Made by a program: the position numbers and the translations under genes | Origin: Chthonomonadales bacterium | GTDB taxonomy: Bacteria; Armatimonadota; Chthonomonadetes; Chthonomonadales; CAJBBX01 | Direction: 5' to 3' | NCBI GenBank assembly: GCA_027459625.1 | Contig: DAIDHP010000001.1 | Coordinates: 186,001 to 250,000, forward strand | Length of the DNA: 64,000 nt | Shown: one piece after another, positions 11,652 through 21,362 of the stretch | Position numbering within the stretch: position 1 is the first letter of the stretch | Layout: each line of letters begins with the position of its first letter | The notes under the pieces: generated by a model | What the model saw: only the letters and a program-made list of their open reading frames with translations | Database searches by the model: none | What the model was told of the DNA's origin: nothing

Positions 11652-14117
11652 CTACTTCGGCGGATTTGGAGAACGCACCTTTTTCCTTCGGGAATCGTTC
11701 GTATCCGACACACAAGGACCCTCCAGCGCGATTTCCAATACCTGTTTAATATCGGAAACAAAGATGAACTCCATCTCGTTTCTCACCACCTCGGGTATCT
11801 CCTCGAGATAATCCTTGCGATTCTTCTCCGGGCAGATGACTGTCTTGATACCGGCGCTCCGTGCGGCCAGTGCCTTTTCCTTCAGCCCCCCAATGGGTAA
11901 CACGCGGCCTGAAAGGGTAATTTCACCCGTCATCGCAAGTTTTGGCCGAATGCAACGCCCGCTGAAAAGAGACGCCAGTGCGGTGGTGATGGTGATGCCT
12001 GCGGACGGCCCGTCCTTCGGTATGGCTCCTGCAGGAACGTGCATGTGAATGTCGTGCTTTTGAAAGAAATCCGTATCGGCTCCGATATCCTTTGCGTGAG
12101 CGCGCACATACGACAGGGCGGCTTGCGCCGACTCCTTCATGACATCCCCCAGTTGTCCGGTGATGATGAAGTTCGACGGTCGATTGGAGGGAGTTTCAAT
12201 AGCGGTGGCTTCTATGTAGATGATATCGCCCCCAACAGGAGTCCAAACCAGCCCGATCACAACGCCTGGAATTCGAGTGCGTTCATCGATCTCTTCACGT
12301 TCAAATCGAGGCGGACCTAGGTATTGAACCACTACGTCCGGAGTTACGTCCAAGTTCTCCATCAATCCCTCGGCGAAACCTCTGGTGGCTTTTCGGCATA
12401 CGTTAGCGATCTCGCGCTCCAAATTTCTCACGCCAGCCTCGCGCGTATATCCCTGAATGATCTTGGATACGCTCTCCTCGCTAAAATTAATGCGCCCCTC
12501 TATTCCATGCTCGTTTATTTGCTTTGGGAGTAGATGGCGCGTAGCGATAACCTTCTTCTCCTCCTCCGTGTATCCGGCGATCTCGATGATTTCCATCCTA
12601 TCTCTCAATGGAGGAAGGATCGTATCAAGAACGTTTGCCGTTGTGATGAAGAGTACTTTGGAAAGATCGAAAGGCACTTCAAGATAATGGTCGCGAAACG
12701 TGGAGTTCTGCTCGGGATCCAAAACCTCCAGCAAGGCGGATGATGGATCACCTCGAAAATCCGATGTCACCTTGTCTATCTCGTCAAGCATAAACAGCGG
12801 ATTATTGGATTCCGCGCGTCTGATGCCCTGGATAATCTGCCCCGGCAATGCGCCGATGTAGGTTCTCCTGTGCCCACGTATCTCGGCTTCATCACGCACC
12901 CCGCCGAGAGATATCCTTATGAACTTTCTGCCAAGCGCATGCGCAATGGATTTGCCGAGAGATGTCTTACCCACTCCTGGAGGTCCTGCAAAGCATAGTA
13001 TGGGATGACGTATCGAACCTTCCGACTTGAATTTTCGCACGGATAGATACTCAAGGATGCGATCCTTAACCTTTTCCAATCCGGAATGGTCGGCGTCCAA
13101 GGTTTTCTTAACATCGGTGATATCCAGATTGTCCATGGTGTTTATTGCCCAGGGAACCGCAACCAACCAATCAATGTAGGTCCGCGAAACCGTGTATTCG
13201 GGAGAACCTGGAGGAATACGCTGCAGACGATCCAGTTCATTCGACGCCGCCTTGTGAGCTTCGTCTGACATGTGAGCCTCTGCGATTTTGGATCTTAACT
13301 CCTCTATCTCCTGAGTTCGATCATCCCCTTCGCCAAGCTCTTTTTGAATGGCTTTCAATTGTTCCCGCAGGTAAAAATCACGTTGTGTTTTTCCGAGTTC
13401 CGAATTAACTTGGCTCTCCACTTTGTTGCTTAGTTCCAACACCTGCACTTCCCTCGCGAGGAAGCCGATCAATTTCTGCATGCGTGGAATTACAGGCAGG
13501 GTTTCAAGGATCTCCTGTTTCTCAGCAGTGGAGAACCTTGGAATTTGGGCGGTGATCATATCGGTGAGAATACGCGGATCATTTATGGATGTCGCCATTC
13601 CTTGCAGTTCATCCGACAGATCCCTCGATTGGCTGACAATCCGCTGGAAAAGGTTCGAAATGCTGCGTTTCAACGCCTCCACTTCAAGCGAATCGGCGGA
13701 GTCGATCTCCGGTTCTCGCAACACTCTCACATTGCACCTTAGGTAGGGAGTCTCCTGCACCGGTTCCAATATCTCAATTCTTGATATTCCTTGCACGATC
13801 AATCGTAAGCCGTCAGGCATTTGCCCCATCATGCGGATTGCAACCGCAGTGCCGATTTTGTGAATGTCATCAAAAGTAGGGTTCTCTATTGAGGGGTCTT
13901 TTAACGTGGCGACCGCTATTATTCGATTGCCTCCAACCACCGATTCATTGACCAGACGCACCGAATTCTCTCTTCCTACGCCCAACGGGGTAACCAACAC
14001 AGGAAAAATCACCCAGTCCCGCAATGGAAGAAGATTCAACTGATCGGGCAATTCTAGTTTGTCCGTGTCGTTCGTTTCCAAAGGTTCGAATATGTTTGTA
14101 AGCTCGGTATCTGACAT
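11652..14117 (-). CDS. lon: ATP-dependent protease Lon
   Basis: Hexameric AAA+ serine protease that degrades misfolded and regulatory proteins in the cytoplasm. The N-terminal substrate domain begins LNLLPLRDWVIFPVLVTPLGVG; the AAA+ module has Walker A GPPGVGKTS (about residue 377), ALLEVLDPEQN and the sensor region; the C-terminal protease has catalytic Ser in PKDGPSAG (about 705) and catalytic Lys in GGLKEKALAA (about 748). Length is 821 residues from the ATG at 14117; a GTG five codons earlier (14132) is less likely because the ATG is the conventional start after GAAAAG. It lies 158 bases downstream of hsp20 on the same strand, a sensible heat-stress pairing. Confidence 0.97.
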   Translation of the reverse strand: MSDTELTNIFEPLETNDTDKLELPDQLNLLPLRDWVIFPVLVTPLGVGRENSVRLVNESVVGGNRIIAVATLKDPSIENPTFDDIHKIGTAVAIRMMGQMPDGLRLIVQGISRIEILEPVQETPYLRCNVRVLREPEIDSADSLEVEALKRSISNLFQRIVSQSRDLSDELQGMATSINDPRILTDMITAQIPRFSTAEKQEILETLPVIPRMQKLIGFLAREVQVLELSNKVESQVNSELGKTQRDFYLREQLKAIQKELGEGDDRTQEIEELRSKIAEAHMSDEAHKAASNELDRLQRIPPGSPEYTVSRTYIDWLVAVPWAINTMDNLDITDVKKTLDADHSGLEKVKDRILEYLSVRKFKSEGSIRHPILCFAGPPGVGKTSLGKSIAHALGRKFIRISLGGVRDEAEIRGHRRTYIGALPGQIIQGIRRAESNNPLFMLDEIDKVTSDFRGDPSSALLEVLDPEQNSTFRDHYLEVPFDLSKVLFITTANVLDTILPPLRDRMEIIEIAGYTEEEKKVIATRHLLPKQINEHGIEGRINFSEESVSKIIQGYTREAGVRNLEREIANVCRKATRGFAEGLMENLDVTPDVVVQYLGPPRFEREEIDERTRIPGVVIGLVWTPVGGDIIYIEATAIETPSNRPSNFIITGQLGDVMKESAQAALSYVRAHAKDIGADTDFFQKHDIHMHVPAGAIPKDGPSAGITITTALASLFSGRCIRPKLAMTGEITLSGRVLPIGGLKEKALAARSAGIKTVICPEKNRKDYLEEIPEVVRNEMEFIFVSDIKQVLEIALEGPCVSDTNDSRRKKVRSPNPPK

Positions 14118-14275
14118 TATCTTTTCAAACACCTCTGAAAATAAAATCTGGAAATTGCATAATACACGATGGCGAAGCGGTTTTGAGTGCGACGAATATC
14201 ATTACTGCACACGGCTGATTTTTGGCACATTCCGGATATAAAAGGAAGAGTTGATCTGCAAGGAGACATCGTCCC

Positions 14276-14734
14276 TCATTCGGTAACAGGAATAGTGCGT
14301 AATTCAGATGTCACACCTTCACGTTTTGGAAGAGTGATGATGAGAAATCCATCGCGATAATTAGCAACTATGCCATCGCGATTGATCCTTACGTTATTAG
14401 GCAGGTAAATTTGCCGCTCGAACGGTCCAAAATATATCTCTAACTGGTAACACCGAATTCTGGATTCTCTCTCCTCATCCTCTTCATAACGCTCTCCGGA
14501 AATTGTCAGGAACCTATCGTCGTTAGAGATCGAGACACTCAGTTTATCGGTCTTCACTCCTGACACTTCCACTTTTATGACAATGCTGCTAACGGTCTCA
14601 TGGAGGTCCACTCTTGGTTGCCAGAACTTGTTCGGATTTGGAACCTCTCTGAGGAAACCCCGGAGGGTCTCTTCGGCGATTCGTTGCATTTCCGCATCCA
14701 TCTGTCTTAATATATCCTGATCCCTGTAATTCAT
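14276..14734 (-). CDS. Small heat shock protein, Hsp20/alpha-crystallin family
   Basis: ATP-independent chaperone that holds unfolding proteins. The alpha-crystallin domain spans about residues 40-140 and shows PRVDLHETVSSIVIKVEVSGV, DRFLTISGERYEE, RQIYLPNNVRINRDGIVANYRDGFLIITLPK, with the final A-x-x-x-n-G-v-L pattern in the form VANYRDGFLII. The ATG at 14734 follows GGGTGAG at proper spacing; a GTG three codons earlier (14743) is possible. A good vegetative promoter lies at 14765-14793. Divergent from the ECF sigma gene and upstream of lon. Confidence 0.93.
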   Translation of the reverse strand: MNYRDQDILRQMDAEMQRIAEETLRGFLREVPNPNKFWQPRVDLHETVSSIVIKVEVSGVKTDKLSVSISNDDRFLTISGERYEEDEERESRIRCYQLEIYFGPFERQIYLPNNVRINRDGIVANYRDGFLIITLPKREGVTSELRTIPVTE

Positions 14735-14764
14735 ATGGCTCACCCGCTTGGCTCACTTGGAATA

Positions 14765-14793: not shown

Positions 14794-14934
14794 CTTTGGA
14801 GTTAATATATATTACCTCATGTAACCTAACACATCTACGATACGTCAAAAGGATACATTCATGAAATGTTTGACATCTGAGAAGAGATACGAAACATGCA
14901 ACAGGAAATGTTCGCAGATCGCCGAAGGACTTCA

Positions 14935-15513
14935 ATGAAAGAGTTGGATGTCACTTCGAGCATTGACCCTGACATCCGGATGATCGTTCGATATCTGGAG
15001 GGGGATCAACGCGCATTCGATGACATTTTCTACAAATATCAAACTTACGTGTATAACATAATTCTTGGTATCGTCGGCACGGATGACGAGGCGCGCGACA
15101 CGACGCAGGAGGTTTTCCTTCAGGTACATCGATCCCTCCGCACATTTCGATTTCAATCACAGTTCTCGACTTGGTTGTATCGGATCGCCGTTAACCGCGC
15201 CATGGATGCTGCGCGAGCAAAAAAACGTCGGAACTGGTTCTCTTTCGAGCAAACGCCAAAGGAAACGACATCACCAAATCCCTCCCCGGAGGAGAGGGCT
15301 ATCGAGGAATCCGAACGTAAATCGATACGGGACTTACTTGCCATGGTACCCATTCAACACAGAGACGTGCTCGTCCTTAAGTATTACCAGGAGTTGTCAA
15401 TAGAAGAAATCGCTCAAACATTAGGATGCTCAGTTACTGCGGCAAAGGTAAGACTCCATCGTGCGCGACAATATTTCAAGGAAAGGTATACGGCGATCCA
15501 TGAAAACAAATAG
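14935..15513 (+). CDS. ECF-type RNA polymerase sigma factor
   Basis: Extracytoplasmic-function sigma factor with region 2 (RAFDDIFYKYQTYVYNIILGIVG, DTTQEVFLQVHRSLRTFRFQSQFSTWLYRIAVNRAMDAAR) and region 4 (LLAMVPIQHRDVLVLKYYQELSIEEIAQTLGCSVTAAKVRLHRARQYFKE), joined by a linker rich in Pro and Ser. It directs transcription in response to an envelope signal relayed by the next gene. An ATG at 14935 preceded by AAGGA gives 192 residues; an in-frame ATG at 14896 would add 13 residues with a weaker ribosome site. Its end overlaps the anti-sigma gene by 14 bases, the usual sigma/anti-sigma arrangement. Confidence 0.93.
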   Translation: MKELDVTSSIDPDIRMIVRYLEGDQRAFDDIFYKYQTYVYNIILGIVGTDDEARDTTQEVFLQVHRSLRTFRFQSQFSTWLYRIAVNRAMDAARAKKRRNWFSFEQTPKETTSPNPSPEERAIEESERKSIRDLLAMVPIQHRDVLVLKYYQELSIEEIAQTLGCSVTAAKVRLHRARQYFKERYTAIHENK

Positions 15514-16630
15514 CTCGCAAACGGTTCGCTGTAAGCGCATTAAACCTCTTCTTTCCTCGTACGTGGAGGGGGAGTTAACGGATGATGACAGATTGATGGT
15601 TGAGTCACATCTGAAAAACTGCGATGCGTGTCGTAAGGAGCAGATGGAGTATCGAAAGTCCCTCAGCGACCTGAAAAATGCCGCGCAGGTGCTTGTCCCT
15701 GATAATCTCATATCCGAATTTCACTCCAGATTATCCTCGCAGCAATCGAAAACAAGGCATCACGGATTCGCTTGGCAATTGGGTACGGTCGGCGTCGTTG
15801 TGCTTCTGGCGTTCGTTTTTCTAAAAGTATCTTGGCGCGTCAGCCCTGTTCCTCAACCCCATCATTCCATGCAGGAGATGAACTCGTCAAGGAACACCAA
15901 TTCAAATAAGATAGCAATGCTCCCTAAAAAAACCGATGGAATCACGCAAGACAAATCGCTGAAATCACATTATACGAAGATTCCCATCCCCATGCATTCG
16001 TCCATGCCGATTGAGCCTCGGAAAAAAACAGGAAATCACCTAACGACCAGGGTGGCGGAAAACAATACTGCGGGACTGCACCAAACGGAGCACAAAACAA
16101 CTATATCGAATACGACACGTCAAAAACATCATAACTCTAATCAGATATCCGCTCTAGCGATTGCGACGAATCTCTCTCGATTGGAACACGCCAAGCTTGC
16201 TCAAAAAATAGCAATGCTTAATCAAAGCCACACGCCTTTCGAGGAGGATGTTTTGCCTCCAGTTAAAGCCGCTTCGCCAAACCGCCCTATGATGACCATG
16301 ATGAGCGAATCCGTTCAGACGCCAGTATCAAGAGCTGAGGCGCCTGTATCAAAACCCATCACCGCAAATCCGCCGTCGGGAAATATACGGGGAATGGGGG
16401 GATTTGGCGGAGCCGGACGCCCGATGGAGGGAAAAACACTCTCTTCCAAAATCTCACCCATAGCACCCACACATTCCATGAGGTTACAGGGTGAAAATAT
16501 TCAGCGAGTCAATGAACTCATACGGTCAATTGATAGGGTCACCGTTCTCAAAGGCGAGAGAGGGGTAAACTCCTCCGGGGCATTGATGTGGATAAAGGTT
16601 GTGATTGAAACAATGCTGACGCCACATTAA
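15500..16630 (+). CDS. Zinc-finger anti-sigma factor, single membrane span, long extracytoplasmic part
   Basis: Predicted regulator of the overlapping ECF sigma factor. The cytoplasmic N-terminus is a zf-HC2/ZAS zinc domain with C11, then H37-x3-C41-x2-C44 (VESHLKNCDACRKE), the usual sigma-binding fold. A membrane helix follows at about residues 90-112 (LGTVGVVVLLAFVFLKVSW). The remaining ~265 residues are outside the cytoplasm, rich in Ser, Pro, Lys, Met and low in structure, with a Gly-rich segment (GMGGFGGAGRPMEG), and end in a short more structured region (IQRVNELIRSIDRVTVLKGE). The outer part is much longer than in most such proteins and is the likely signal-receiving or protease-sensitive portion. 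An upstream in-frame GTG at 15461 is less likely. Confidence 0.88.
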   Translation: MKTNSSQTVRCKRIKPLLSSYVEGELTDDDRLMVESHLKNCDACRKEQMEYRKSLSDLKNAAQVLVPDNLISEFHSRLSSQQSKTRHHGFAWQLGTVGVVVLLAFVFLKVSWRVSPVPQPHHSMQEMNSSRNTNSNKIAMLPKKTDGITQDKSLKSHYTKIPIPMHSSMPIEPRKKTGNHLTTRVAENNTAGLHQTEHKTTISNTTRQKHHNSNQISALAIATNLSRLEHAKLAQKIAMLNQSHTPFEEDVLPPVKAASPNRPMMTMMSESVQTPVSRAEAPVSKPITANPPSGNIRGMGGFGGAGRPMEGKTLSSKISPIAPTHSMRLQGENIQRVNELIRSIDRVTVLKGERGVNSSGALMWIKVVIETMLTPH

Positions 16631-16695
16631 TCACCACACAGAGCGAATGTGACCTAATCCAAATATAGCCTAACAAGCATTCTGCGGAGAGCATT

Positions 16696-17616
16696 ATGAA
16701 AAGTTATTTCATGATAGTTGTTTTAATTTGCGGCATCGTATGCGAGTATACCATTGCCAATAGCCAAACATACCCCGTGCTTAACAAAGCCTATCAAAAC
16801 ATTCGTTTGTCCGGCAAAGACAAGAACGGCGTTCCATTGTATAGCATGCAGGCTAATAATGCTGATATAACCAAGGTGTTAGCGGCTATTTTCAGTAAAT
16901 CGGGAGATCAGTTCCTTATCGATCAGGATGTAAGGGGAGCAATATCATTCTCGCTGAAAAAAATGCCGATTACGGAAATACTGCGCTTCGTCGAGATTGC
17001 CGCCAAACCTCCAATCCACGTTGAGCGGGGGGAAATTATTCATGTTACAAGGGAAATGTCGCTGCCAAGGACTACTTCTGAAGATACTGTTAGGGGAATC
17101 GGAAGTGCGCTTGGAGTCTACGGAGGGGCAAGGGAAAATCCATCCCACTCGATTCCCCTTGGCGCATCAAATCGGAACATGGTGAATTTGGTTGTTCCTC
17201 AAAGTCGTCCCATAACTCTTCAACAAGCCTTGCAAAAGATACAGGAACAGTCGAACATCCCTATTTCCATGTCAAACGAGATACCGAGAAACGTCCAATT
17301 CACCGGTCAAATCACAAACACGCCGGTGAACTTAGCGTTGGACGCAATCGCCAAAACTGCGGGATTAAAGGTCCTCCCCCTGCAAAATGGAGGGTTGTTG
17401 CTTACCTCCGGGAATAGCTTTCGCCTATTCATCGAAAAAGTTTTGATTGGGTCTTATCCTGATCATCCGTTGCTTTTTTGCACAAAATGCCATTATCCTC
17501 TCTCGCCCAATTGGGTCGTTTGTCCGAATTGCGGTCAGATAACGCCTCACGGCTATGAGTTATTGGAAAAAGCCAATGCAAAGAAACGTCAAGTGGGAGA
17601 TCAGCAGAATCGATAA
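16696..17616 (+). CDS. Exported STN-domain protein with C-terminal zinc ribbon
   Basis: Protein of 306 residues with a signal peptide (MKSYFMIVVLICGIVCEYTIANSQ). Two regions (about 52-118 and 172-238) look like secretin/TonB short N-terminal modules: the first reads ADITKVLAAIFSKSGDQFLIDQDVRGAISFSLKKMPITEILRFVEI, the second PITLQQALQKIQEQSNIPISMSNEIPRNVQFTGQITNTPVNLALDAIAKTAGLKV. The C-terminus has a C4 zinc ribbon: C262-x2-C265-x10-C276-x2-C279 (CTKCHYPLSPNWVVCPNCG). No secretin beta-barrel or TonB receptor barrel follows. It lies 66 bases after the anti-sigma gene on the same strand and probably belongs to that unit. It may be a sensor or adaptor of the envelope signal; this is inferred. 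Confidence 0.8.
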   Translation: MKSYFMIVVLICGIVCEYTIANSQTYPVLNKAYQNIRLSGKDKNGVPLYSMQANNADITKVLAAIFSKSGDQFLIDQDVRGAISFSLKKMPITEILRFVEIAAKPPIHVERGEIIHVTREMSLPRTTSEDTVRGIGSALGVYGGARENPSHSIPLGASNRNMVNLVVPQSRPITLQQALQKIQEQSNIPISMSNEIPRNVQFTGQITNTPVNLALDAIAKTAGLKVLPLQNGGLLLTSGNSFRLFIEKVLIGSYPDHPLLFCTKCHYPLSPNWVVCPNCGQITPHGYELLEKANAKKRQVGDQQNR

Positions 17617-17720: not shown

Positions 17721-18245
17721 CTAATTCCGATGTTTACTTCTCAAAAACCATAAGCCGCTGAAACCCGAACATAGGAGCGTGCTTATAACTCCCGGTTCGG
17801 GAACATTGGTGCCCGGTTGTTTAGGTGATGGAGTAAACAAAGGGCTTGGATCATTCGGAGTTAAAACTGGAGTATTATCCCTGCTAGAGGAGCCGGATGG
17901 TGTCAACGTAGATCCGCCAGTAGGCGCATTATTGAACGACGCCCCGTTTCCGCCCCCGCCGGAAAAAGAAAACCCAAATATGGCGCTTAATCCCGCGCCA
18001 ATCAACAGTGAATCGAGTGTTTTGTTGTTACGATAGCTACTGTGTTGTCCTTGATCTGTTGTAAGGTAATTACCTCCCTGGTCATAAGATAGATTTGAGT
18101 AGTTTTGACTACCGCCCTGGTCCTTAATAATTGGGTACAGGGTGATTGCGGATGCCGGCAATACAAGCGACATGGCGCAAATGAGCACCACCCCTCTGAT
18201 AGCCATCCATCCTGTCCATCTTTTCTTTCCTTCATGCATTGACAT
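17721..18245 (-). CDS. PEP-CTERM sorting-tail protein
   Basis: Exported protein of 174 residues. The N-terminus MSMHEGKKRWTGWMAIRG plus a hydrophobic stretch ending LPASA is a signal peptide. The mature part is low-complexity, rich in Gln, Gly, Ser, Asn and Pro (KDQGGSQNYSNLSYDQGGNY). The C-terminus is a textbook PEP-CTERM: VPEPGVISTLLCSGFSGLWF followed by the basic RSKHRN, recognised by an exosortase/EpsH-type system usually tied to exopolysaccharide export. No enzyme domain is seen. The ATG at 18245 has AAGGAAG upstream; a start 13 codons earlier (18284) is less likely. No exosortase gene is in the window. Confidence 0.85.
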   Translation of the reverse strand: MSMHEGKKRWTGWMAIRGVVLICAMSLVLPASAITLYPIIKDQGGSQNYSNLSYDQGGNYLTTDQGQHSSYRNNKTLDSLLIGAGLSAIFGFSFSGGGGNGASFNNAPTGGSTLTPSGSSSRDNTPVLTPNDPSPLFTPSPKQPGTNVPEPGVISTLLCSGFSGLWFLRSKHRN

Positions 18246-18354
18246 GGCGTTACTTCCTTCCATTGATACATGCACAACAAACACTCAATATCTATTAATG
18301 CATATTGCATGCCAAAATAAAAGGAAAATGGCGTGATATGAAAAAAAAATTGGG

Positions 18355-21219
18355 CTATTTTATTTTTGTCTCATGCCAAAGACGTGATATATCATTCGGA
18401 TCTAACACATCATGCCACATTTCCACGTCGCCCACCCAACCTATATAAAGCGCCGGGGTATCCCCTTTGGGAGGATTACCGCCCCATGCCTCTCTGCCAA
18501 TGTACAGGGATTCGGTTGTATTGCTCACGGATTCCTTCACATCCTTCCGCCCCGCCTCCGCACCGTCCGCATATAAAACAACCCCTTCCCCATCTTTTAC
18601 TACCGCCACAATCTGGTGCCAAACATTGGGTTTTAAAGTTGTGTCGCACTGAAAGTTAAACGCCCAATTGCCATCGCCGTCCGTTGCCTCAAAGGTGGGA
18701 TGCCCGTCCGTCACACCAAGCACAAATGGTGTTTCCATACTCCCATATCGCTTGGAAAGCAAACCCCATCTCCCTTGAAGATCGCTTGATTTAAACCACA
18801 CGGAAATCGTAAAGGATTTAGGCATCAGGATGGGCGACCGTGACACAATAAGATAGGATTCACCATCCAATTTCACGCTGTGTCCGGCTGGCCCCTGGTC
18901 GGACAGCTTGCAGTCGCCCATGCACACGGCGTTAAAACCATTGCCAGTTTCATCGGGAAAGACATTGTCCGTCATATTGTCAAAGGTGATGTGAAGCAAC
19001 GGACCAGGTTTTGCCGCAAATCGTTCATACGCCTTTCTTAGAAGATAAGCCTCGGCGCCTTCGGAAGTGATATTTTGGGAGCAGTCGATAAAATGGTTGT
19101 CGTGAAGATAGACGCCCAAGGTGGATTTTGAAAGGAAAAGCCCCTCCTCGGCGTTTTTCACCGTGTTTTTCTCCGCCACCACCTCCTGTGTGTAGGGAAA
19201 TGTCACACTCTGCCCCGACGTATCCGTACCGCCGATTGTCAAATGTGCATTGTTATAAAGTACATTGCCTCTCATAACGCAGCATAATGTCAACGGGGCG
19301 TCCGGCGTAACGCCAGGGGGCAATGCCATAATGCCTAGGTGAGCCTCACCCATGGTGACGGACTGATCGTGCCCCCCGGCATAAGTATTGCCCTCAATGA
19401 TTTTATTGTCGAGCCATTGGTTATACCATGAGGGTTGAATTCCATCGTAATTCATGCCGAAGTTGTGGAACCCTCCGGTCCTTGCGGAAATGTTGCGGTA
19501 TGCGATATTTCCGATACTTGTGCCATACATCTGTATCGCTATTCCCGCATCCTCAAATCGGTTCTCGACGAACAGATAATTACGATGAAGCATAGTGATC
19601 GTGATTATGGAAGTGTTGTCAGGCGGAACAAGCCACGGGGAATCCACCGTCACATTGGAGCCATCATAAGAGGATATTCTCCTGTATTGCCCCTCCCCTT
19701 TGCCGCCAAGGATGAACAATCCGGTTCCCACCCAGTTTCGGTCATTCCAATTCGGATCGTTCTTCAAGTGAACCACCCTGCCATTCGAGCTATCAACGTA
19801 TCCGTAATAAGCCCCTCCGCCCGCATCGGTGGTAATCGCCTCACGATCCCAGCCAAACATGTTTTTAAATAAGTTTTTGGAGAAATAGATATCCTGGGAA
19901 TAACTTGTATCATAGCAGTTCGGCGAGCCACCGGTGGACATCAAACTGGCGCCAATAATATTGTTGCGTTCCATTAGCAGCCCGTCGGAACCGGTGAGGC
20001 AATACCATCCCCAACGACCGTTGTAAAAGGTGTTGTCATGCACCCAAGCGCCTGACGCCTGTTGCAGGTAAAGACTTCTTCCCCCGCCGTATATATCGCA
20101 TCCGGATATCTCTATGTCCTCTCCACCAAGGCGAAGCGAATCCGCACCTCCAGTGGAATACGTCATTGCTTCCTTGAATCTCTTTGCAACCTCTTCCTGA
20201 GTGATATGCCCTCTGTAAGGATCCATTCTCAGACGCACATTGATGATGTTAATATGCCCGCAAGTGGGTTTTCGCAAGTCCGAAACAATGCCGTGTTTCC
20301 AACTCATGCTGTAAAGTGTTAGATCCTTGATTTGAAAATGGTCGTATCCGCGAATCAGTTCCTCCGGAGGATTTTCCGTATCCGCCCAGCATAGAGCCGT
20401 CAGCACCTCTCCCGCGCCCTGAAGAGTAACGTTCCTCGGTATAACCAATCGTCCTGTTATCGCGTATCTGCCGCGAGGAAGATAGACAACTCCCCCGCCC
20501 GCATTGCCGGCCTTATCCAAGTTACGCTGTATTTCCATTGTGGTGTCCAAAGCTGACACAAATCCCGCCACTGACGGCACGACGTATTTTTTGGATGGAA
20601 AAACATAAGGTTTTACGATGGCAATGCCTGCCGGAGCGCTCCAATCCTTCAGATTTCCAACCCCCGAATGGACTTTCAGAACGTATTTGCCGGGTCTAAT
20701 GGAGGATGGAAGGTTTGCCGAAATTGAAAAGGGTTCAAATACGGAGGGATGAATTGTGTAGGAGCCACCATTTCCGATAATTCGAATTAGTGGCTTTTCA
20801 TTGCCAGTCATAAAACATTTACCCATAATCCGAAGTTCGCCGCCAGGCGAGGCGTATGTTCCCTGATCCCCTTGAGTCCACAGAATTTGAGGTCGGTTAA
20901 CAATGACACTTGCATCGCCGTTAGGTGTGCAAAGCGTCGCCTCATAGACGCCCGCTGGAAACGACCGGGGAATTTGGAATTTAACGCATCTCTCATCCTC
21001 TTGCACCGGTTTCAGCGAGGTAAAGCGCGTAGAGGTGTTCGAGGCGAGATTATTGGAATCGAGCGACACTTGAACTTTTTCGCACCCGATGAATCCTGTG
21101 CCGAAAACTATTACAGTATCCCCGGGGCCGACCGGATCCGAAGCCCAAAACACAACCGGTTTGGCGCCTGCATACAATCCCATGCATAGGAGCGATACTA
21201 TCATCCAAAAGGATCTCAT
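18355..21219 (-). CDS. Exported right-handed beta-helix protein with IPT-like and LamG domains
   Basis: Secreted protein of 954 residues. The signal peptide is MRSFWMIVSLLCMGLYAGA. An IPT/TIG-like beta domain follows (SDPVGPGDTVIVFGTGFIG), then a pectate-lyase-type right-handed beta-helix (about 220-750) that opens AGNAGGGVVYLPRGRYAITGRLVIPRNVTLQGAG and continues with turns such as DIEISGCDIYGGGRSLYLQQASGAWVHDNTFYNG. The last ~200 residues are a concanavalin-like LamG fold (LLHITFDN, KSFTISVWFKSSD, NVWHQIVAVVKDGEGVVLYADGAEAG). Such proteins bind or cut polysaccharides; no catalytic set can be named. The ATG at 21219 follows GGGGAGGT; the longer reading to 21291 is rejected. Confidence 0.85.
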   Translation of the reverse strand: MRSFWMIVSLLCMGLYAGAKPVVFWASDPVGPGDTVIVFGTGFIGCEKVQVSLDSNNLASNTSTRFTSLKPVQEDERCVKFQIPRSFPAGVYEATLCTPNGDASVIVNRPQILWTQGDQGTYASPGGELRIMGKCFMTGNEKPLIRIIGNGGSYTIHPSVFEPFSISANLPSSIRPGKYVLKVHSGVGNLKDWSAPAGIAIVKPYVFPSKKYVVPSVAGFVSALDTTMEIQRNLDKAGNAGGGVVYLPRGRYAITGRLVIPRNVTLQGAGEVLTALCWADTENPPEELIRGYDHFQIKDLTLYSMSWKHGIVSDLRKPTCGHINIINVRLRMDPYRGHITQEEVAKRFKEAMTYSTGGADSLRLGGEDIEISGCDIYGGGRSLYLQQASGAWVHDNTFYNGRWGWYCLTGSDGLLMERNNIIGASLMSTGGSPNCYDTSYSQDIYFSKNLFKNMFGWDREAITTDAGGGAYYGYVDSSNGRVVHLKNDPNWNDRNWVGTGLFILGGKGEGQYRRISSYDGSNVTVDSPWLVPPDNTSIITITMLHRNYLFVENRFEDAGIAIQMYGTSIGNIAYRNISARTGGFHNFGMNYDGIQPSWYNQWLDNKIIEGNTYAGGHDQSVTMGEAHLGIMALPPGVTPDAPLTLCCVMRGNVLYNNAHLTIGGTDTSGQSVTFPYTQEVVAEKNTVKNAEEGLFLSKSTLGVYLHDNHFIDCSQNITSEGAEAYLLRKAYERFAAKPGPLLHITFDNMTDNVFPDETGNGFNAVCMGDCKLSDQGPAGHSVKLDGESYLIVSRSPILMPKSFTISVWFKSSDLQGRWGLLSKRYGSMETPFVLGVTDGHPTFEATDGDGNWAFNFQCDTTLKPNVWHQIVAVVKDGEGVVLYADGAEAGRKDVKESVSNTTESLYIGREAWGGNPPKGDTPALYIGWVGDVEMWHDVLDPNDISRLWHETKIK

Positions 21220-21362
21220 GAAGACCTCCCCTGCCATCGGTGTAACGAGGTAATCGCCACAAACCTCTCGCATCGCGCTGAATATCTTCACTCATCGGAA
21301 TGATGGATAAGGAAGTGCGACCACCTCGTTCCATATTAATGACTCCCAAAGTAAGCTGATAA

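Follow-up and report, generated by a model that had tools for sequence, protein, structure and literature searches.

We find that an ECF sigma factor gene, a membrane anti-sigma factor gene and a gene whose exported product has two STN domains stand together as a genuine unit in Armatimonadota. The free STN protein probably holds the outer end of the membrane anti-sigma switch, and our best inference is that it relays a signal to the anti-sigma factor. We consider it on balance probable that the three genes form an envelope-stress circuit, in which the STN protein, seated on a conserved hairpin ('hook') of the anti-sigma factor, gates proteolysis of that factor, the resting state being protective. 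In known systems, STN domains form the signalling end of receptors or the entrance ring of secretins, and Armatimonadota have many unstudied ECF sigma factors.

Three adjoining genes for a sigma factor, an anti-sigma factor and a free STN protein

The window analysed here is a 64,000-nucleotide stretch of DNA from a Chthonomonadales bacterium. The trio and its parts locate as follows:

14820..14846, + strand: candidate ECF promoter TGTAACC-N16-CGTC, 115 bases before the sigma start (pattern scan)
14935..15513, + strand: ECF sigma factor, 192 aa (ORF list, Pfam, NCBIfam)
15500..16630, + strand: anti-sigma factor, 376 aa, with zf-HC2, one TM segment and a 268-residue outer part (ORFs, Pfam)
15767..15823, + strand: predicted TM segment, anti-sigma residues 90-108 (hydropathy maximum)
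16535..16627, + strand: conserved C-terminal hairpin (hook) of the anti-sigma outer part, residues 346-376 (sequence comparison)
16696..17616, + strand: free tandem-STN zinc-ribbon protein with signal peptide, 306 aa (Pfam, AlphaFold, Foldseek)
16792..17055, + strand: first STN/N0-type domain (STN1), residues 33-120 (Pfam, AlphaFold)
17173..17415, + strand: second STN/N0-type domain (STN2), residues 160-240, kept in all compared family members (AlphaFold)
17473..17544, + strand: C-terminal zinc ribbon, residues 260-283, with C262, C265, C276 and C279 (Pfam, AlphaFold)

The sigma and anti-sigma ORFs overlap by 14 bases, and 65 bases separate the anti-sigma stop from the STN gene. A further in-frame ATG for the sigma factor lies at 14896, and an AAGGA lies just 5' of the ATG at 14935. 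Its product has region 2 and region 4 domains only (Pfam Sigma70_r2 and r4_2, E 1.1e-13 and 3.8e-15), which is the composition of an ECF sigma factor, and scores over the TIGR02937 cut-off of NCBIfam. In the anti-sigma factor, the zf-HC2 domain (Pfam E 1.8e-11) carries the motif H37-x3-C41-x2-C44. With this H-x3-C-x2-C motif, one TM helix and an adjoining sigma gene, the protein is assigned by its sequence as a class I (zf-HC2) membrane anti-sigma factor, and inhibition of the sigma factor is predicted. Pfam reports no FecR or STN match in it. An earlier note on this DNA had described a sigma gene overlapping a membrane anti-sigma gene and followed by an exported STN protein, and our analysis confirms this description.

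Lon and Hsp20 genes (window 11652-14743) run divergently from the sigma promoter. We ruled them out as part of the unit, because only the window and its genus mate show this arrangement. After the trio, the other strand (17721-21291) encodes first a small protein whose end is PEP-CTERM-like, then a 978-residue exported protein, which by eye has a beta-helix plus LamG look.

The exported protein carries STN folds but no barrel or secretin

The STN protein matches the Pfam models Zn_Ribbon_1 (E 3.9e-6), FecR_C (5e-4) and STN (3.4e-5, below the curated cut-off of that model). At E up to 1, Pfam finds no secretin, plug or barrel domain and no MucB_RseB match. NCBIfam models of PilQ and GspD match at the N-terminal part only, with PilQ as the best. 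The AlphaFold structure, predicted from a 34-row alignment, shows two STN-type folds and the ribbon at a pLDDT of about 90, with disordered linkers between them, and Foldseek matches it to LspD, the PilQ N0 domain, a putative anti-sigma factor (4m0h) and the FecA signalling domain. Pfam, NCBIfam and the predicted structure thus agree with the earlier claim of two STN modules and a zinc ribbon, with no secretin or TonB barrel. In genus g7 (three species), STN1 is lost, and STN2 and the ribbon are retained.

Since the N-terminal part of PilQ gives the top NCBIfam match, the protein could instead help to assemble the envelope or pili as a PilQ-type N0 helper, with co-regulation as its only tie to the sigma factor. 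We regard this as very unlikely. The protein has no secretin domain, its gene still follows an anti-sigma-like gene at 25 of 25 loci that lack an adjoining sigma gene, and a natural fusion and STN segments in other anti-sigma factors of the same sigma lineage, both described below, speak against it as well.

The trio recurs in four families of Armatimonadota

Relatives were searched in 61 genomes and then, with a profile, in 291 genomes of the phylum, and the matching stretches were fetched. A match was present in 222 genomes; 40 loci were taken, mostly best first among the matches listed. Among the matches listed, 53 proteins are of the free STN type, including that of the window. The sigma, anti-sigma and STN genes are consecutive in all 24 assessable loci among the matches listed, which fall into four families (f1, 11 loci; f3, 5; f6, 7; f33, 1); one of them (L037) has a gap of anti-sigma size that was not read in detail. 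In six of the seven f6 loci, the STN reading frame starts 101 bases within the anti-sigma gene. Comparing 15 neighbourhoods revealed that the trio are the only genes common to most loci. Apart from antisense shadows, the other recurrent ORFs there are a permease-like gene in four genomes and a further gene at four loci.

At 25 of 25 further loci, an anti-sigma-like gene lies directly before the STN gene, and no sigma gene was found in the fetched stretch (16 loci in f14, six in f28, one each in f29, f30 and f31). Three of these partners (L088, L097 and L101) were missed by the profile and recognised by reading, and the partner at L097 has lost its zinc ligands. A second copy in G003 (L040:6476-7207), with tandem STN domains and a zinc ribbon, is flanked by unrelated genes, with no sigma or anti-sigma gene near. 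The neighbourhood survey that the earlier note had proposed therefore recovers the trio at 24 of 24 assessable loci, but the idea of a trio everywhere is rejected on account of the 25 pairs without an adjoining sigma gene, and L040 lacks either partner.

Three loci at contig edges (L039, L041 and L111) enter the ribbon count below and not the adjacency count; at L111, the end of an anti-sigma-like partner is visible at the edge. Conversely, L089, cut by a contig end, enters the adjacency count and not the ribbon count. Six loci (L105, L106, L107, L112, L113 and L044), with one STN-type hit or split, or with other protein types, were left out before counting, and G004, whose sigma gene lies at a contig end, was not counted. 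At L113:671-2710 (G218), the same parts are arranged differently, a protein with one STN-type hit immediately preceding a sigma/anti-sigma pair instead of following it.

The outer part of the anti-sigma factor ends in a hook

The outer part of the window anti-sigma factor is long and, for the most part, low-complexity. To this extent it is the long disordered region of the earlier description, but it ends in a conserved hairpin. In the 25 pairs without an adjoining sigma gene, the outer part of the anti-sigma-like protein measures 114-278 residues, is low-complexity and closes in the hook pattern, such as V-E-V-F-D-x-x-G or I-R-V-Y-D-x-x-G. The pattern falls within the last 30 residues in 23 of the 25, versus 0 of 5000 shuffled outer parts, a control that gauges composition only, because the hook patterns were composed after the sequences had been inspected. 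The remaining two proteins have a shortened form of this ending.

Among the sigma-linked proteins of f1, f6 and f33, 18 of 18 examined have a related hairpin, in which a strand comes after D/N-x-x-G. The window protein is one of them, and there the hairpin forms the very end of the chain. This looser pattern occurs in 153 of 5700 shuffles, with those of the fusion protein included, and here too the shuffles measure composition. Only two of five f3 proteins fit it, most of this family having another ending, and the fusion protein does not match it. With the hairpin present in every compared sigma-linked protein of f1, f6 and f33, we rejected plain disorder as a description of the outer part.

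At L109, which belongs to a family whose pair does not adjoin a sigma gene, the two genes share a frame, and we folded them as one chain in AlphaFold with the intervening stop read as a residue. In this model, the hairpin (residues 194-211) has a pLDDT of 91-96, and the flanking linkers are at 39-57. Because about 20 residues are confidently folded between disordered linkers, the model suggests that the hairpin packs on a folded partner. VIA-align on the same model reported the two STN domains only, and nothing on the hook.

A natural fusion joins the anti-sigma factor and the STN domain

While seeking the sigma gene in families where the pair stands alone, we found a 440-residue protein in G195 (L173:164-1486), encoded by the next gene after a sigma gene, which consists of zf-HC2 (Pfam E 5.4e-7), a TM segment, a linker, an STN domain and a zinc ribbon. 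Its comparison with the 34-row STN alignment gives an hhalign E of 5.9e-15 across STN2 and the ribbon; the fusion keeps these two parts and is without STN1. With the fusion protein as query, no second fusion was found in the 291 genomes, the second match covering the zf-HC2 end only.

At the sigma loci of f14, five of seven proteins encoded after the sigma gene have an STN-like segment at the outer end. Compared as profiles, these five and the free STN proteins align over 82 columns with E 3e-9, and Pfam reports STN in one of the five. The corresponding f28 proteins have ends that look STN-like by eye; they were not counted because Pfam gave no STN match in the two tested. Judging from the fusion and the f14 segments, the sigma lineage appears often to retain an STN domain inside its anti-sigma factor or adjoining it.

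A candidate promoter may link the unit to exported proteins

GTAAC-type promoter forms lie upstream of 14 of 23 scanned sigma genes, and the pattern was not found before the other nine. In 15 chosen genomes, the exact form TGTAACCT-N15-CGTC occurs 17 times, versus twice for the reversed pattern. Five of the 17 sites lie upstream of the sigma gene itself, 11 lie 33-146 bases before an ORF with an exported-protein-like start (signal peptides judged by eye), and one (L147) is without a clear ORF downstream. Across different genomes, the candidate targets include macroglobulin-like (MG2/MG3/MG4), VIT/VWA and SIMPL proteins and a polysaccharide deacetylase. When one mismatch is allowed in the window's own genome, the pattern is not enriched (38 versus 67 reversed). 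Upstream of the sigma-less pairs (23 of 25 scanned) we found no promoter, bar one weak pattern running into the coding start. In G020, the ORF behind one site (L154:1577-2284) encodes an exported protein, STN-like by eye, with a glycine-rich end and no Pfam match.

The earlier note had proposed that the three genes make up one sensing module. Conserved adjacency, the natural fusion and the shared candidate promoter support this reading.

The zinc ribbon is an optional module

Among the fetched loci of the matches listed, 29 of 52 assessable proteins carry the zinc ribbon, a share biased upward because the search query itself contained the ribbon. It is present throughout f1 (12/12, L040 counted), f6 (7/7), f28-f31 (9/9) and f33 (1/1), where it keeps its W and CP motif. 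Conservation of the ribbon, which the earlier note had made a test of its reading, is therefore partial, as the ribbon is missing in f3 (0/7) and f14 (0/16), and we rejected it as a defining part of the unit. The ligands vary too. The f6 ribbons are C-x-C...C-x2-C. The window has the four cysteines of the C4 ribbon described earlier, but in 7 of 12 ribbon proteins of its own family, f1, the fourth cysteine is replaced by aspartate (C-x2-C...C-x2-D).

The conserved W and CP motif would fit a ribbon that senses periplasmic zinc or thiol redox state, with the STN domains only as an adaptor. This seems to us decidedly unlikely, as the seven assessable f3 and 16 f14 proteins without a ribbon keep the remainder of the protein, and aspartate takes the fourth ligand position in 7 of the 12 f1 proteins. 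The ribbon is an optional module, and we propose that it is either structural or a metal/redox sensor.

Relation to known systems

In GspC-GspD and PilP-PilQ, the N0 domains of secretins meet inner-membrane partners. We propose a comparable contact, in which an inner-membrane protein offers a small, tethered beta element to an N0/STN domain. Unlike those systems, no secretin is involved here, no pore domain following the STN domains of the window protein, and the partner is an anti-sigma factor.

In the RpoE-RseA-RseB system, RseB is encoded in the sigma operon. This soluble periplasmic protein sits on the outer part of the anti-sigma factor, and it must leave RseA before RseA is cleaved (PMC8103513). 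We propose a similar placement for the STN protein, whose sequence is unrelated to RseB and lacks the MucB_RseB domain.

The closest precedent is PUMA3 (VreA-VreR-VreI) of Pseudomonas aeruginosa. Its sigma/anti-sigma locus includes VreA, an STN protein that is mostly soluble and has no barrel (PMC2729926), and the window likewise encodes an exported barrel-less STN protein with an ECF sigma factor and a membrane regulator. VreA combines a single STN domain with a TolA/TonB-like domain at its C-terminus; the window protein lacks the latter and has two STN domains and a ribbon instead. Also unlike PUMA3, the order here is sigma, anti-sigma, STN, and the anti-sigma factor ends in a disordered tether with a hairpin. 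The earlier suggestion that such a layout is undescribed is too strong, because VreA is already an example of an STN protein standing free within a sigma locus. What is new relative to VreA is the tandem STN domains, the optional ribbon, the gene order and the tethered hairpin. Full-text literature searches returned no description of this layout; the ECF group catalogue, outside their reach, may already list the context.

By analogy with FecA-FecR-FecI, PupB-PupR and FoxA-FoxR, we propose that an STN domain acts on a membrane anti-sigma factor. Unlike these TonB-dependent transducers, which combine STN, plug and beta-barrel and face a FecR/STN-type outer domain, the window protein is without barrel, plug and TonB box, and the anti-sigma factor has no STN-type domain of its own. 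The older model of cell-surface signalling would make the STN protein an activator, binding the anti-sigma factor only after stimulation, with a separate outer-membrane receptor or secretin as the possible source of the signal. The parts and adjacency are identical to those behind the protective model, and STN domains also pair with each other (PMC11637429). Still, we think an activator unlikely: no receptor or secretin gene is conserved beside the trio in the 15 compared neighbourhoods, and recent work on FoxA and FoxR, in which the signalling domain of FoxA shields FoxR from proteolysis, points to binding at rest (PMC11637429).

A proposed envelope-stress circuit

In the protective circuit that we favour, the membrane anti-sigma factor would use its zf-HC2 domain to tether the ECF sigma factor at the inner membrane. 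The outer part would work as a fishing line, with a variable disordered tether and a conserved beta-hairpin as the hook. We propose that the exported tandem-STN protein grips this hook, with STN2 as the likeliest site, and that the contact is made by beta-sheet pairing, as for STN domains elsewhere. At rest, the bound STN protein would shield the anti-sigma factor from the first protease. An envelope change that removes or alters the STN protein would then lead to stepwise cleavage of the anti-sigma factor, and the freed sigma factor would transcribe its own operon and genes for exported proteins. The loss of STN1 with retention of STN2 and the ribbon, both in g7 and in the fusion, counts for this circuit. 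On the other hand, L040 without a partner, the nine of 23 sigma loci without the promoter, the lack of enrichment in the window's own genome once a mismatch is allowed, and the misfits to the hook pattern (f3 and the fusion) count against it, as does the fact that the L109 model comes from a family whose pair stands away from any sigma gene.

More tentatively, and with rather less than even confidence, we envisage a phylum-wide class in which the disordered line and terminal hairpin of an inner-membrane zf-HC2 protein complete the sheet of a free STN protein. The pair would already have existed early in the phylum, with one ECF sigma factor coupled to it in some families and standing apart in others, at least one fusion, and the ribbon as a sensor module gained or lost.

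If the circuit is true, it would show how cell-surface signalling can be built without a receptor, from a free STN protein and a tethered hairpin as its counterpart. It would also explain what a common gene pair of Armatimonadota does, and for this pair a clear binding test is possible.
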